NCBI GenBank assembly: GCA_947173495.1 | Contig: CAMWFQ010000033.1 | Coordinates: forward strand, 1 to 43,575 | Length of the DNA stretch: 43,575 bases | Direction: 5' to 3' | Origin: an uncultured Lachnospiraceae bacterium | Lineage (GTDB): Bacteria > Bacillota > Clostridia > Lachnospirales > Lachnospiraceae | In this document: positions 8,084-42,264 of the stretch, in pieces | How positions within the stretch are numbered: position 1 is the first letter of the stretch | How the letters are laid out: the number at the start of each line of letters is the position of its first letter | The notes under the pieces: generated by a model | Told to the model about the DNA's origin: nothing | The model's database searches: none | The model's input: the letters and a program-made list of their open reading frames with translations, nothing else | Made by a program: the position numbers and the translations under genes

Positions 8084-9133
8084 ATGGAAGGAAAAATGAA
8101 GGTAGCGGTAATGGCCGGGATCGGAAAGATGGAGTATGAAGAGAGGGATATCCCGAAGATAAAGGATAACGAAGTTCTGGTCAGGCTGGAATATGTGGGG
8201 ATCTGTGGCAGCGACCTGCATTATTATGAAACAGGAGCGATCGGGGACTATGTGGTTAAGCCGCCATTTGTGCTGGGACATGAGCCGGGGGGAACGGTAG
8301 CGGAAGTGGGGAAGGAGGTAAGGCATCTGAAGGTCGGAGACAGGGTAGCGCTGGAACCGGGAAAAACCTGCGGACACTGTGAATTCTGTAAAACGGGGCG
8401 TTATAATCTCTGCCCGGATGTGGTGTTTTTTGCGACGCCGCCGGTAGACGGAGTATTTCAGGAATATGTGGCCCATGAAGCAGATCTCTGTTTTAAGCTT
8501 CCGGAGAACGTAAGTACCCTGGAAGGAGCCCTGATAGAGCCTTTGGCAGTGGGATTTCACGCGGCTATGCAGGGAGGAGCAAGGGCCGGACAGAGCGCGG
8601 TGGTTATGGGTGCAGGTTGTATCGGTCTGGTGACCATGATGGCCCTGAAAGCCATGGGCGTATCCAGAGTATATGTGGCGGATATCATGGAAAAACGCCT
8701 GCAAAAGGCATTGGAGCTGGGAGCAGACGGAGTGATCAACGCAGACCGCTCTGATGTAGTGGAAGAGGTAAGAAAGCTGACGGAAGGAAGGGGATGCGAT
8801 CTTGCGGTAGAGACCGCGGGCACCCAGACAACCACGGTACAGACGATCCATATGGCGAAGAAGGGAGCAACCATTGTGCTGGTGGGCTACAGCAAAAGCG
8901 GAGAAATGACACTGCCCATGAGCCTTGCGCTGGATAAAGAACTGACCTTCAGGACAGTATTCCGTTACCGCCATATCTACCCCATGGCGATTGAAGCAGT
9001 TGCAGCGGGAAGAGTGAACCTGAAAGGGATTGTGACAAATATTTTCGGATTTGATGAAGTACAAAAAGCCATGGACGAGAGTGTAAACAACAAAGCGGAT
9101 ATTGTGAAGGCAGTGATTCGTATTACTGCGTAA
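8084..9133 (+). CDS. Zinc-dependent polyol dehydrogenase (sorbitol/xylitol/L-iditol type)
   Basis: Medium-chain dehydrogenase of 349 aa that oxidises a polyol to a ketose with NAD. Catalytic zinc ligands are seen in CGSDLHYY and GHEPGG; the structural zinc site is the four-Cys segment CGHCEFCKTGRYNLC; the Rossmann motif is GAGCIG. The CGSDLHYYETGAIGDY stretch is characteristic of sorbitol/xylitol dehydrogenases. GGAGG precedes ATG 8084; a second in-frame ATG at 8096 is possible. The gene stands alone, with no kinase or sugar transporter beside it, so the substrate cannot be fixed. Start and length agree with the family. Confidence 0.9.
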   Translation: MEGKMKVAVMAGIGKMEYEERDIPKIKDNEVLVRLEYVGICGSDLHYYETGAIGDYVVKPPFVLGHEPGGTVAEVGKEVRHLKVGDRVALEPGKTCGHCEFCKTGRYNLCPDVVFFATPPVDGVFQEYVAHEADLCFKLPENVSTLEGALIEPLAVGFHAAMQGGARAGQSAVVMGAGCIGLVTMMALKAMGVSRVYVADIMEKRLQKALELGADGVINADRSDVVEEVRKLTEGRGCDLAVETAGTQTTTVQTIHMAKKGATIVLVGYSKSGEMTLPMSLALDKELTFRTVFRYRHIYPMAIEAVAAGRVNLKGIVTNIFGFDEVQKAMDESVNNKADIVKAVIRITA

Positions 9134-9423
9134 GGGATATAAAAACTTCGTATAAAAACAGCCGTAACAGCTGCTTATAATGTTGCTGTTTCAGCTGTAA
9201 GAAATTTGTAAGAAACACCTTGCGTATTTTGTAAACAATTCCGGGTATGCTGATAACAGCTCAGGGAGAATGAGCTCAGGAACTGTGCAGGAGAAATATC
9301 CGGCGAAATCTGACTTCAGCACAGTTCCCAACGTTTTAAACGAATACGACAACACGGTATTGTATCAGAAGCGGTATCGGGCAGAAAAGAGACAGCCGAA
9401 AGTGTAGGCAGAAAGGCATAAGA
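9134..9423 (+). promoter_or_regulatory. Structured leader with direct repeats before the two-component system
   Basis: Two interleaved stems follow the dehydrogenase stop: 9156-9162 with 9185-9191, and 9167-9173 with 9192-9198. Then TGTAAGAAA occurs at 9196-9204 and again at 9207-9215, exactly 11 nt apart (one helical turn), with a weaker TGTAAACAA at 9230-9238. Such spacing is typical of OmpR-family regulator sites. Further on, AGCTCA/TGAGCT forms a small hairpin near 9268, and GGAACTGTGC (9279-9288) pairs perfectly with GCACAGTTCC (9319-9328). No gene is visible. A TTGCGT/TATGCT promoter pair (9220, 9246) is possible but spaced at 20 nt. Confidence 0.5.
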
Positions 9424-10131
9424 ATGGAACGCATACTTGTTGTAGATGATGACAGAGAGATTGTAAAGGCGATCAGTATTTTGCTGGAAAAGGAAGGCTA
9501 TGAGGTGCTGAAAGCTTACGATGGCCTTCAGGCATTGGATATTTTGGCGTCCTCTCAGGTACAGCTGGTGCTTATTGACGTGATGATGCCGAAGCTGGAC
9601 GGTCTGTCTGCGATGATGCGAATCAGAGAAAAAAAGAACATTCCGATTATTGTTCTCAGTGCAAAGAGCGAGGACACAGATAAGGTGCTGGGATTATCTA
9701 TGGGAGCAGATGATTATGTATCCAAGCCCTATAATCCCCAGGAACTGGCAGCCCGGGTGAAAAGCCAGATCCGCAGATATACCTGTCTGGGTGATATCAA
9801 TGCAGGGAATAAAGCAGAAGAGATCAGGAATGGACGCCTGTGTTACCGTACGGATGAAAAGGTGATCTACGCAGATGGGGAAGCAGTAAAGCTGACTGCC
9901 ACGGAAACAAAGATAGTGGATCTGCTGATGAGAAATCCCGGCCGGGTATTTCCGGCCGAGGAGATTTACCGCCGTGTATGGAATGAGGATGCCTATGCAT
10001 CGGAAAATACCGTGATGGTGCACATCAGACGTATTCGTGAGAAACTGGAGCTGAATCCGAAAGAGCCAGAATACATAAAGGTGGTGTGGGGAATTGGATA
10101 CAAAATGGAAAAACAGGAAAAATGTAATTAG
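9424..10131 (+). CDS. Two-component response regulator, OmpR/PhoB family
   Basis: DNA-binding response regulator of 235 aa. The receiver domain (about 1-120) has the acidic pocket VDDD, phospho-acceptor Asp52 in LIDVMMPKLDG, the conserved Ser/Thr in VLSAKSE and Lys in SKPYNP. The C-terminal winged-helix domain (about 135-232) shows LTATETKIVDLLMRNPG and the recognition segment TVMVHIRRIREKLE. The ribosome site is weak (AGAAAGG). It overlaps the kinase gene by 38 nt, so the two are cotranscribed and probably translationally coupled. The direct repeats in the leader are a candidate self-binding site. Confidence 0.95.
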   Translation: MERILVVDDDREIVKAISILLEKEGYEVLKAYDGLQALDILASSQVQLVLIDVMMPKLDGLSAMMRIREKKNIPIIVLSAKSEDTDKVLGLSMGADDYVSKPYNPQELAARVKSQIRRYTCLGDINAGNKAEEIRNGRLCYRTDEKVIYADGEAVKLTATETKIVDLLMRNPGRVFPAEEIYRRVWNEDAYASENTVMVHIRRIREKLELNPKEPEYIKVVWGIGYKMEKQEKCN

Positions 10132-38663: not shown

Positions 38664-39623
38664 ATGAAAATAGTAGTTCTGGAGAGAAACAGTGTGGGAC
38701 TGGATGTTTCTGTGGATGAGATCGGGACATTGGGAGATGTGAGAGTGTATCCGAACACCACGGCGGCAGACGTGAAGGATAAGATCAAGGATGCAGAGAT
38801 TATCGTAGCGAACAAGGCGCCTCTGAATGAAGATACCTTAAGGGGGGCGGAGAATGTGAAGCTGATCTGTGAATTTGCCACAGGATATGACAATGTGGAT
38901 CTGGCCTATTGTAAAAGCAGGGGGATTAAAGTGGCCAATGTGGTGAACTATTCCACAGATGCAGTGACGCAGCATACCTTTGCGCTTTGCTTTTATGTGC
39001 TGGAGAAGCTCCGTCATTATGATGAATATGTAAAGTCAGGCGCCTACGCTGCCCAGGAGAGGTTTTCAAATTTTGACATCCCTTTTACCGAGCTGGCAGG
39101 AAAAACCTGGGGAATCATAGGAATGGGACATATTGGCAGGAAGGTTGCGTCTGTGGCACAGGCTTTTGGATGTAAGGTGATCTTCTATTCGGCGTCCGGC
39201 AGCAGTACCTGTACAGAATATGAAAGAGTAGATTTTGATACGGTTCTCAGAGAAGCAGATTTTCTTTCCCTTCATTGCCCGCTGAGCGACAGAACGAGGA
39301 ATCTGATAGATGCGGAAGCATTTCAGAAAATGAAAAAAAGCGCTATTTTGATTAATGTGGCCAGGGGGCCGGTGGTAAATGAAGAAGCGTTATATGAGGC
39401 GCTGACCGAAGGGACGATTGCAGGAGCCGGACTCGATGTGCTCAGCGCAGAACCCATGAAAGAGAGCAACCCTCTGAGCAGGATTCAGGACAGTAATAAG
39501 CTGATTATCACCCCGCATCTTGCATGGGCAAGCATTGAGGCCAGGAGGCGGTGCGTTTCCGAAACCTGCAGGAACATTGAAGCCTTCCTCAAGGGAGAGA
39601 ACAGAAATATCGTGAACTTGTAA
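38664..39623 (+). CDS. D-isomer 2-hydroxyacid dehydrogenase
   Basis: NAD-dependent reductase of a 2-oxo acid, 319 aa. The Rossmann motif GMGHIG sits near residue 155; the catalytic set is Arg in NVARGPVVNE, Glu in LDVLSAEPM and His in ITPHLAWAS. Sequence around these motifs is closest to glycerate/hydroxypyruvate dehydrogenases. AAGGAG precedes ATG 38664. It is followed 11 nt later by an SAH/MTA deaminase gene; a role in 2-oxo-acid handling next to methionine recycling is possible but unproven. Confidence 0.88.
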   Translation: MKIVVLERNSVGLDVSVDEIGTLGDVRVYPNTTAADVKDKIKDAEIIVANKAPLNEDTLRGAENVKLICEFATGYDNVDLAYCKSRGIKVANVVNYSTDAVTQHTFALCFYVLEKLRHYDEYVKSGAYAAQERFSNFDIPFTELAGKTWGIIGMGHIGRKVASVAQAFGCKVIFYSASGSSTCTEYERVDFDTVLREADFLSLHCPLSDRTRNLIDAEAFQKMKKSAILINVARGPVVNEEALYEALTEGTIAGAGLDVLSAEPMKESNPLSRIQDSNKLIITPHLAWASIEARRRCVSETCRNIEAFLKGENRNIVNL

Positions 39624-39634
39624 GGGAGATGGAT

Positions 39635-40930
39635 ATGGGAATCTTACTGAAAAACATTCTGGCAGTATTGCCGGAGAAAGATAAGGATGTTATCAGAGAA
39701 ACGGATATTTATATTGAGGGCAGCAGAATTGTCTCTGTGGGCGACAGGCCGGAAGGATTTTTCGCTGAAAAGGTGATTGATGGGAAGGACAGGCTTGCCA
39801 TACCAGGGCTGATCAACTGCCATACACATTCTTATATGTCTTTTATGAGGAATATGGCGGACGACATCAGTTTTATGGACTGGTTGTTTGGAACCATTGA
39901 TCCCATAGAGCAGAAGATGACAGATGAGGATGCCTATTGGGGAGCGTGCCTTGCGATTATAGAAATGATGAAAAGCGGCACCACCTGTTTCAACGACATG
40001 CAGATGAACATTCACCAGACCACAAGAGCGGTGAAAGAATCCGGTATGCGTGCTGTGATCAGCCGGGGACTGGTGGGAAGCGGAAACGATGAGGGCGGAC
40101 GGATGCGGCTGCAGCAGGCTTTTGAGGAGAAAGAGGCAGCCAGAGACTGTGACAGGCTCACCTTTATGCTAGGACCTCACGCACCTTATACCTGCGATGA
40201 CTCCTATATGCGTATTGTTTCTGAGGAAGCAAAAAAGAACCATATGCGGATTCATGTTCATCTTTCAGAGAGTGAAAGTGAGATACAGCAGATTCAGGAA
40301 AAATACGGCGTATCGCCGATCGAGATGGCTGATCAGAACGGTCTGTTTGATGTACCTGCCATCGCTGCCCATTGTGTGCAGATTACGGAAAAGGATATGG
40401 AGATCCTGAAAAAAAAGAATGTGAGCGTGGTGACCAATCCGGCCAGTAACATGAAGCTGGGCAATGGATTCGCACCGGTACCTGCCATGTTGAAAAAAGG
40501 GATTAACATTTGTCTTGGCACAGATGGCGCCGCCAGCAATAATTCGCTGAATATGTTTCATGAGCTGAGTCTGCTTACTCTGGTCCACAAGGGCGTGCAC
40601 AAGACGCCTCAGTGTATCAGCGCTGAAGAGGGCTTTCGGATCGTAACGATAAACGGTGCCAGGGCGCTGGGACTGGAAAAGGAGATCGGGTCACTGGAAA
40701 CAGGCAAGAAAGCGGATATTGCAATCCTTGACCTGAACAGCCCGTCTCTGACACCCAGAAACAATCTTCTGGCCGGACTTTCCTATTCAGCCAACGGCTC
40801 AGAGGTGGAGACAGTCATCATTGATGGAAAGATTACCATGGAAGGACGGAAAGTACTGACTATGGATGAAGCGCTGGTGTGTCGCAAGGTAAATGAGATC
40901 ATAACTCGTATGAGTATTGATAAAAAGTAG
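39635..40930 (+). CDS. mtaD: 5'-methylthioadenosine/S-adenosylhomocysteine deaminase
   Basis: Amidohydrolase that removes the 6-amino group of the adenine ring in SAH or methylthioadenosine; 431 aa. The metal ligands are INCHTHSYM (HxH), His in MRIHVHLSES, His in AIAAHCVQ and Asp in CLGTDGAASNNSLNMF, all in place. The fold and length fit the MtaD/DadD group. ATG 39635 is chosen over ATG 39629 because AAGGGAG ends immediately before 39629 and gives proper spacing only to 39635. The next gene is an SAH-hydrolase homologue 83 nt on, which has its own promoter. Confidence 0.88.
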   Translation: MGILLKNILAVLPEKDKDVIRETDIYIEGSRIVSVGDRPEGFFAEKVIDGKDRLAIPGLINCHTHSYMSFMRNMADDISFMDWLFGTIDPIEQKMTDEDAYWGACLAIIEMMKSGTTCFNDMQMNIHQTTRAVKESGMRAVISRGLVGSGNDEGGRMRLQQAFEEKEAARDCDRLTFMLGPHAPYTCDDSYMRIVSEEAKKNHMRIHVHLSESESEIQQIQEKYGVSPIEMADQNGLFDVPAIAAHCVQITEKDMEILKKKNVSVVTNPASNMKLGNGFAPVPAMLKKGINICLGTDGAASNNSLNMFHELSLLTLVHKGVHKTPQCISAEEGFRIVTINGARALGLEKEIGSLETGKKADIAILDLNSPSLTPRNNLLAGLSYSANGSEVETVIIDGKITMEGRKVLTMDEALVCRKVNEIITRMSIDKK

Positions 40931-40944
40931 TAAGGCAGAAAGTG

Positions 40945-40973
40945 ATGACAGGACAGACGACCATCACTATAAT
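40945..40973 (+). promoter_or_regulatory. Promoter before the SAH-hydrolase homologue
   Basis: ATGACA (40945-40950), one mismatch from TTGACA, and a perfect TATAAT (40968-40973) are 17 nt apart. The leader is about 33 nt and contains the GGAGG site; no SAH or SAM riboswitch is seen. Confidence 0.75.
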
Positions 40974-41013
40974 AAAAATTCGGCTGAATCAAATATCTAT
41001 TGGAGGATAAAAA

Positions 41014-42264
41014 ATGAACAGTGAAATCAGAGACATCAGTTTGGCCGAATCCGGGGAACGCAAGATCGAATGGGTGAAGAGAAATTGCGATCTTTTACGT
41101 ACTCTGGAAGGGGAATTCAGGGAGATGAAGCCCTTCGAAGGTAAAAAAATTGCTCTTTCCGTTCATCTTGAGGCGAAGACAGCTTATCTTTGTCTGGTAC
41201 TGAAGGCAGGCGGAGCCCAGATGTTTGTAACAGGCTCCAATCCTCTCTCCACCCAGGATGATGTGGCGGCCGCTCTGGTAAAAGCCGGCCTTGAAGTTCA
41301 CGCATGGTATGACTGTACACCTCAGGAGTATGAAACGCATATCCGCCATGTGTTGGAAGCCGGCCCTAATATTATCATTGATGATGGAGGAGATCTGGTT
41401 AATATGATCCATACACAGATGCCGGAGCTGATACCGGCTATCATCGGCGGCTGTGAAGAGACTACCACAGGAATTATCCGTCTGGAAGCGATGAACCGGG
41501 CAGGAGAGCTGAAGTTCCCTATGGTTCGCGTTAATAATGCAGATTGCAAGCATCTGTTTGATAACCGCTACGGGACCGGGCAGTCTGTATGGGATGGCAT
41601 CAATCGTACCACCAATCTGATTGTAGCAGGCAAAATTGTGGTGGTAGCCGGCTATGGCTGGTGCGGAAAGGGCACGGCCATGAGGGCGAAAGGGCTTGGC
41701 GCAAGAGTAATTGTTACGGAAATCGATCCTATTAAGGCAATCGAGGCAGTTATGGACGGATTTGATGTGATGCCCATGAACGATGCCGCGAGGGTAGGCG
41801 ATTTCTTTGTTACGGTGACAGGATGCGATAAGGTGATCGACGAAGAGGACTTCAAAGTCATGAAGGATGGGGCGATCCTCTGCAACGCAGGACACTTTGA
41901 CTGCGAGATCGATATGGCAAGGCTCCGCGAGATTGCCGTGGAGACCAGGGAGCAGAGAAAAAATATCATGGGTTATAAACTGCCCACCGGCCAGTGGATT
42001 TTCGTTCTGGCAGAAGGAAGGCTTGTAAATCTGGCGGCTGGAGATGGACATCCGGCAGAGATTATGGATATGAGTTTTGCAATCCAGGCATTGTCTGCCA
42101 AATATCTGGTAGAGCACGGCAGCGGGCTGAAAGAGAAGCTGATCGATGTGCCTGCAGAAGTTGACAGGGACGTAGCGGAAAGGAAGCTTGCATTCCTTGG
42201 AAAAAAGATTGATGTACTGACACCGGAGCAGGAAAAATATTTAAACAGCTACACACTCAACTGA
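41014..42264 (+). CDS. ahcY: S-adenosylhomocysteine hydrolase homologue, possibly S-inosylhomocysteine hydrolase
   Basis: NAD-containing hydrolase of 416 aa, the short form without the insert near the middle. Catalytic residues by comparison with the human enzyme are kept: His51 (human His55), Glu in EETTTG, Lys and Asp-Asn in CKHLFDNRYG, His in NAGHFDCEID, and the NAD motif GYGWCGKG. The base-binding stretch reads HLEAKTA instead of HMTVETA, so human Thr57 and Glu59, which contact the adenine amino group, are Glu53 and Lys55. Human Met351 corresponds to Asp344 in GDGHP. With an SAH deaminase gene next door, these changes suggest it splits S-inosylhomocysteine to inosine and homocysteine. TTGGAGG precedes ATG 41014. 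Confidence 0.9.
   Translation: MNSEIRDISLAESGERKIEWVKRNCDLLRTLEGEFREMKPFEGKKIALSVHLEAKTAYLCLVLKAGGAQMFVTGSNPLSTQDDVAAALVKAGLEVHAWYDCTPQEYETHIRHVLEAGPNIIIDDGGDLVNMIHTQMPELIPAIIGGCEETTTGIIRLEAMNRAGELKFPMVRVNNADCKHLFDNRYGTGQSVWDGINRTTNLIVAGKIVVVAGYGWCGKGTAMRAKGLGARVIVTEIDPIKAIEAVMDGFDVMPMNDAARVGDFFVTVTGCDKVIDEEDFKVMKDGAILCNAGHFDCEIDMARLREIAVETREQRKNIMGYKLPTGQWIFVLAEGRLVNLAAGDGHPAEIMDMSFAIQALSAKYLVEHGSGLKEKLIDVPAEVDRDVAERKLAFLGKKIDVLTPEQEKYLNSYTLN

Follow-up and report, generated by a model that had tools for sequence, protein, structure and literature searches.

An MTA/SAH-type deaminase gene precedes a gene for an SAH hydrolase (SAHH) homologue on a contig of an uncultured Lachnospiraceae bacterium, raising the question of whether SAH is deaminated there before it is hydrolysed. 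The stretch analysed, 43,575 nucleotides long, is referred to below as the window. Both reading frames proved to lie where the first-pass annotation had placed them (Table 1). The deaminase frame opens slightly earlier, but the start at 39635 was preferred over the ATG at 39629 because GGGAG sits immediately 5' of the latter; the corresponding proteins of two relatives begin MGILLKN (L199) and MGIEIKG (L034). Ribosome-binding-like sequences were seen by eye ahead of the window genes. Promoter-like matches in the region were not in excess (8 vs 6.8 in shuffled sequence), and an Rfam scan of the window returned zero families at gathering score. The dehydrogenase gene is also the upstream neighbour of the deaminase in three relatives (L199, L034 and L201). 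In two of these, L034 and L201, approximately 1.4 kb separates the deaminase from SAHH, and in L034 this gap holds a 412-aa ORF (8819-10057), presumably EAL/HDOD-like.

Table 1. Features of the deaminase-SAHH region, in window coordinates.
Feature	Position	Strand	Remarks
D-2-hydroxyacid dehydrogenase	38664..39623	+	No role in SAH route assigned
MTA/SAH-type deaminase, amidohydrolase, TM0936-like	39635..40930	+	Frame opens at 39629
Deaminase Arg146 (numbered from 39629) = TM0936 Arg136	40064..40066	+	Alignment, codon
Promoter-like ATGACA-17-TATAAT before SAHH	40945..40973	+	Pattern match only
Short-form SAHH homologue, predicted S-inosylhomocysteine (SIH) hydrolase	41014..42264	+	Pfam, NCBIfam, PDB matches
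HLEAK motif (H51, E53, K55) of SAHH	41164..41178	+	Alignment
SAHH Asp344 (= human Met351 position)	42043..42045	+	Alignment
Phosphoribosyltransferase (PRTase)-like protein with degenerate PRPP loop	42291..42932	+	Not counted in the SAH route

The window SAHH matched both the substrate and the NAD domain of the family (Pfam AdoHcyase and AdoHcyase_NAD) and scored 652.8 bits against NCBIfam PRK05476.2-3. Its best PDB matches were 7r37 and 7r3a, followed by 3x2e (56, 56 and 54% identity). It was aligned with five further PDB chains and the human core, a sequence matched to PDB chains. Eight catalytic residues were retained (human to window: H55 to H51, D131 to D124, E156 to E149, K186 to K179, D190 to D183, N191 to N184, H301 to H294 and H353 to H346), bearing out the claim that the catalytic residues are kept. 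C195 differs, being T188 in the window and threonine in all five archaeal and bacterial PDB chains compared. The three substitutions proposed at adenine-contact positions, T57 to E53, E59 to K55 and M351 to D344, were in register with the human enzyme. The SAHHs of P. furiosus, M. maripaludis and T. maritima carry E, K and D at these positions, whilst those of S. acidocaldarius and Synechocystis carry T, E and E. Judged from this alignment, the changes in the window SAHH are not chance, because the first three enzymes bear the identical residues.

The nucleobase motif of the window SAHH is HxExK (HLEAK, residues 51-55); the canonical HxTxE(Q) motif of SAH hydrolase (EC 3.3.1.1) is absent. In the passages available of Koeppl et al. 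(2024; PMC10978960), 18 enzymes were tested; those with HxExK, T. maritima included, preferred SIH but still cleaved SAH to a low degree, and those with HxTxE(Q) preferred SAH. The E/K/D triple is thus shared with SIH-preferring enzymes and not with the SAH-type ones. The same passages describe structures in which the Lys can bond O6 of inosine and the Glu bonds N1, in line with the proposal that a lysine donates to the 6-oxo group. The contact to O6 from Asp348, the 351/344 position, is made by the main-chain carbonyl and not by the side chain, a point that calls for care in reading the change at 344. The window protein is a probable SIH hydrolase (EC 3.13.1.9) on the strength of its motif, agreeing with HxExK biochemistry and with the genome context below, and probably retains some SAH activity, as the tested enzymes do. 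PRK05476.2-3 gave the label adenosylhomocysteinase alike to the HxExK, HxTxE and HxS/TxK proteins tried, and therefore does not separate the three motif classes. That the SAH-hydrolase label names the wrong substrate is partly supported, although the motif alone is not proof.

The window deaminase matched Pfam Amidohydro_1 (249.2 bits). Its best PDB match was TM0936 (1p1m/2plm; 5.5e-72, 38% identity over 355 aligned residues), reportedly the subject of a 2007 paper by Hermann. The eight metal and catalytic residues of the amidohydrolase site were kept (H65, H67, E94, H184, H211, E214, H248 and D299). Among the best 25 of 61 NCBIfam models none reached its cut-off; the best scored 440.5 against 609 and the MTA/SAH model 285.4 against 779. 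Arg146 aligned with TM0936 position 136, where the arginine is presumably a ligand of the SAH carboxylate, a group that adenosine lacks. The residue is not strictly required, since 4f0r, a protein labelled MTA/SAH deaminase, has Cys there. TM0936 itself deaminates adenosine, MTA and SAH, according to the text available of PMC4372640.

We then considered the rest of the genome (4.58 Mb in 52 contigs). With completeness at 97% and contamination at 4%, gene absences are not certain. One SAHH was present, and neither LuxS nor an MTA/SAH nucleosidase (TIGR01704) was found. The sole PF01048 protein was an inosine/guanosine-type PNP scoring above the TIGR01700 cut-off. An ordinary adenosine deaminase was not found either, the genome's sole PF00962 match falling in an RdrB-like ORF. 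This 965-aa ORF on contig 17 (L128:3144-6041) gave a partial match to RADAR RdrB (134 bits, PADLOC) and is adjoined by a 263-aa ORF. A second deaminase homologue, on contig 14 near PNP, was 37% identical to the window deaminase and lacked the Arg; a cytidine deaminase-like ORF, identified by eye, lies between it and PNP. Among the matches listed, the closest named relatives were uncultured Lachnospiraceae such as UBA7199 (95% identical), and many of the best 80 of at least 588 named records were rumen or faecal assemblies by title. From its kinship with uncultured Lachnospiraceae we infer that the organism is a mesophile.

We favour, with moderate confidence, the reading that the two window genes work together in SAH recycling, with deamination as the first step. 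The amidohydrolase would deaminate SAH to SIH, which the HxExK hydrolase would then cut to inosine and homocysteine, with Lys55 donating to O6 and Glu53 touching N1 of the hypoxanthine. The inosine would be split by the inosine/guanosine-type PNP encoded elsewhere in the genome. With neither LuxS nor an MTA/SAH nucleosidase found, SAH is probably removed mainly by this pair. Genes, residues and the presence or absence of other genes were observed; the substrates, order of steps and flux of the pair are what we infer. In the window's own genome the evidence points one way: the HxExK motif is accompanied by an Arg-type deaminase and an inosine-type PNP, and no other route for SAH was found. Many bacterial HxExK genomes were however found without an Arg-type deaminase, so the motif by itself does not prove the route.

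To place the pair in context, SAHH and LuxS were surveyed in 196 genomes of the order. SAHH matches at E<=1e-3 were obtained in 53 genomes, of which the 26 with E<1e-60 were accepted as genuine; those dropped were partial and of low identity (the strongest, G005, 29% over query 117-380, E 1.4e-16). LuxS was found in 117 genomes and together with a real SAHH in none, an exclusion significant by Fisher test when kinship is left uncorrected (p 3e-12; lists compared by eye). In the 22 sampled genomes of the window's own family, archaeal-type SAHH occurred in four (LuxS 0/4) and LuxS in all of the other 18. LuxS was likewise found in none of 72 further SAHH genomes.

Motif classes were read in 88 SAHH loci with flanks, comprising the window, 22 of the other 25 order SAHH genomes, one second copy and a phylum sample. 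This set is not random, because the phylum-sample loci were best and low-identity matches. For the order, 23 of the 26 SAHH genomes could be read with flanks, G125, G133 and G141 being fragments. The loci comprised 63 HLEAK, 14 HxS/TxK, 10 HxTxE and one ILEPK, whilst the best 80 of at least 588 named loci were all HLEAK or HMEAK with Asp344. The ILEPK protein (L052:7920-9113) is a divergent second SAHH-like protein (34%), with ILEPK for HLEAK and GGGNP for GDGHP; its gene adjoins a distant amidohydrolase (24%). In the order, 18 loci (among L035-L055, excepting L037, L040 and L052) had HLEAK with Asn344 (GNGHPAD). All but one of these (17/18) came from a single family code (f5), and in none was a deaminase seen in the flanks, although 7/18 have a flank shorter than 3 kb.

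The first-pass annotation had called for the three positions to be compared with the presence of a neighbouring deaminase. Among these loci, chosen by similarity, a deaminase was found in the SAHH flank of 29/63 HxExK, 1/14 HxS/TxK and 0/10 HxTxE loci (27/51, 1/10 and 0/7 with at least 3 kb on both sides). Of the best 80 of at least 588 named loci, all HxExK, 18 had a flanking deaminase (12/51 with 3 kb on both sides) and 62 did not. Genome-wide, a deaminase homologue at E<=1e-60 accompanied 69/73 Lys55 rows against 0/10 Glu55 rows (71/73 and 2/10 at E<=1e-50), in a Lys55 count that leaves out G462, G366, G438 and G223 and counts G247 and G311 twice. At the stricter threshold no homologue was seen in any of the 10 HxTxE genomes from the phylum sample, two of which had weak ones (31%). 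Genome-wide deaminase presence by itself was nevertheless rejected as a clean test, as SAHH-less genomes also bear homologues, 5/6 of those read being non-Arg.

The residue at TM0936 position 136 was also compared across deaminases. Of the 47 deaminases beside an HxExK SAHH, which are related and not independent rows, 45 had Arg, one Lys and one His. Arg was also present in 9/9 deaminases read from HxS/TxK genomes (of 13 genomes), only one of the nine being SAHH-linked. Unlinked deaminases carried it in 9/12 Asp344-class phylum genomes and 8/8 HxS/TxK genomes read, so linkage to SAHH is not needed for Arg. In the Asn344 group Arg was found in 2/19 and Asn in 15/19, where two of the 19 rows (G133 and G141, one of them with Arg) lack a confirmed residue 344. 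Arg occurred in 1/6 SAHH-less genomes, 0/3 paralogues of the contig-14 type and 1/2 weak homologues from HxTxE genomes. Arg and non-Arg deaminases fell mostly into separate clades (7 changes vs 40 in shuffles) on a tree that leaves out two HxTxE-genome rows.

The named genomes with unlinked HxExK genes gave a different result. At E<=1e-40, Arg was found in 0/40 deaminase sequences, which came from 39 of the 50 genomes searched; three of the other 11 had no match, and eight had 40-79% homologues that are outside the count and may well carry Arg. None of the 39 genomes showing only non-Arg homologues had LuxS. Three SAHHs 84% identical to that of the window (L203, L205 and L206) came from genomes in which only non-Arg deaminases were found. 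Close HxExK relatives thus seem to work without an Arg-type deaminase. In those genomes either the non-Arg deaminases still make SIH or the hydrolases take SAH, and with only non-Arg homologues and no LuxS in 39/50, some HxExK enzymes may indeed do the latter.

These relatives keep alive a rival in which the order of steps is reversed, the hydrolase cleaving SAH to adenosine and homocysteine and the deaminase serving as the missing adenosine deaminase that passes inosine to PNP. We consider this unlikely, though it is the strongest competitor. It would account for the failure to find an ordinary adenosine deaminase in the genome, and both the adenosine activity reported for TM0936 and the residual SAH activity of HxExK enzymes, in the published passages cited above, are compatible with it. 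Against it, the HxExK Lys and Glu contact inosine in the solved structures (PMC10978960, in the passages available), and 45/47 linked deaminases keep the Arg, presumably the ligand of the SAH carboxylate.

Less probable still is that the two enzymes act independently, the deaminase salvaging MTA and 5'-deoxyadenosine whilst the hydrolase handles SAH alone and their adjacency is incidental. In its favour, the genome yielded no nucleosidase acting on MTA or 5'-deoxyadenosine, and M. jannaschii is known to have a 5'-deoxyadenosine deaminase (PMC6302742, text seen in part). However, the non-Arg homologue beside PNP on contig 14 is a better candidate for such salvage, and linkage of deaminase and SAHH is seen repeatedly, in over a dozen family codes. 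A possible part in hypoxanthine salvage for the PRTase-like gene downstream of SAHH was rejected, since L033 and L034, the two closest relatives in the order, lack the gene within approximately 7.5 kb of SAHH. It was near SAHH in only one of the best 80 of at least 588 named loci (L199), as an 81% identical copy following a chemoreceptor-like ORF identified by eye. The protein gave a weak pyrE_Therm match (36 bits) and no Pfam match, and its model, built from two sequences, had a mean pLDDT of 36.7. The usual PRPP loop motif has an acidic pair; here the loop reads LLLLASATTGQ, without it.

On SAHH trees built without the motif columns and without L052 (ILEPK), residue 55 required two Glu/Lys changes. 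Holding all Lys rows together was rejected (AU p 4.6e-5) in a set of 52 rows that leaves out eight (human, long-branched and one split match) and approximately two thirds of the other HxExK rows. Change counts alone do not tell gain from loss, but the human outgroup suggests that Glu55 is ancestral. If so, Lys was gained twice, once in the HxExK clade and a second time within the HxTxE clade. A paired phylogenetic test was rejected, as two events put significance out of reach. The idea that HxExK marks only an archaeal-type lineage and is a poor guide to substrate in mesophiles fits the clustering of the E/K/D triple by clade and the HxExK enzymes found with neither Arg-type deaminase nor LuxS, but is very improbable given that the tested HxExK enzymes prefer SIH (PMC10978960, in the passages available) and that residue 55 changed twice, with Arg in every deaminase read from the second Lys lineage.

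Returning to deaminase-first recycling, we tentatively suggest, as a possibility that may well prove wrong, that Lys55 of the hydrolase and the TM0936-type Arg of the deaminase form a two-residue code for SIH recycling in many anaerobic bacteria, the hydrolase side having evolved twice (HxExK, and HxTxK/HxSxK inside the HxTxE clade). The HxTxK/HxSxK group would then be convergent SIH hydrolases outside the published test panel, and those HxExK enzymes that lack an Arg-type partner would have adapted back or have a dual role. The residue rule can be put to a direct test in the second Lys lineage.

The M. jannaschii SIH hydrolase was reportedly described by Miller in 2015. The HxExK rule was published in 2024, so the reasoning of the first-pass annotation was sound but already in print; a 2026 review repeats it (PMC13406329, text seen in part). 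The suggestion of a bacterial version of the methanogen route likewise holds in that the pair is in a bacterium, but T. maritima was a known bacterial case. The passages available of PMC10978960 mention that M. jannaschii and T. maritima have the deaminase and refer to 'closely related thermophilic bacteria'; none of the strings Firmicutes, Bacillota and Clostridi occurs in its text. Judged by title and abstract, no paper matched on S-inosyl(-L-)homocysteine concerned gut bacteria. HxTxK gave no match, and in broader searches the titles and opening lines of abstracts among the matches listed revealed no SIH route in such bacteria. The deaminase and HxExK pair in relatives of gut Lachnospiraceae is new. 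If our reading is right, SIH-based SAM recycling is not confined to hyperthermophiles but also occurs in relatives of common gut anaerobes, a single database label covers two substrate types, and the usual name of the second enzyme may misstate its preferred substrate. Hydrolase Lys55 together with deaminase Arg would be a cheap sequence test, with clear exceptions.

The closest known systems include the SAHH (3X2E) and SAH deaminase TM0936 (1P1M/2PLM) of T. maritima, the same enzyme pair with E/K/D and Arg136 (54% and 38% identity, respectively). Unlike the window organism, T. maritima is a thermophile, and an MTAN homologue is reported there (Koeppl et al., PMC10978960, in the passages available) whereas none was found in the window's genome. 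The Synechocystis SAHH (7O5L; 53% identity), along with other HxTxE short forms, has the same length and fold family as the window SAHH but differs in having Thr/Glu/Glu at the three positions. The SAHHs of M. maripaludis (7R3A) and P. furiosus (7R37/7R38), each 56% identical, share with it the fold family, short C-terminus, catalytic residues, HxExK and an Asp at the human 351 position. Unlike these enzymes and the SIH hydrolase of Methanocaldococcus jannaschii, the window protein is bacterial and its SIH activity is predicted only; in the window the deaminase gene lies adjacent.
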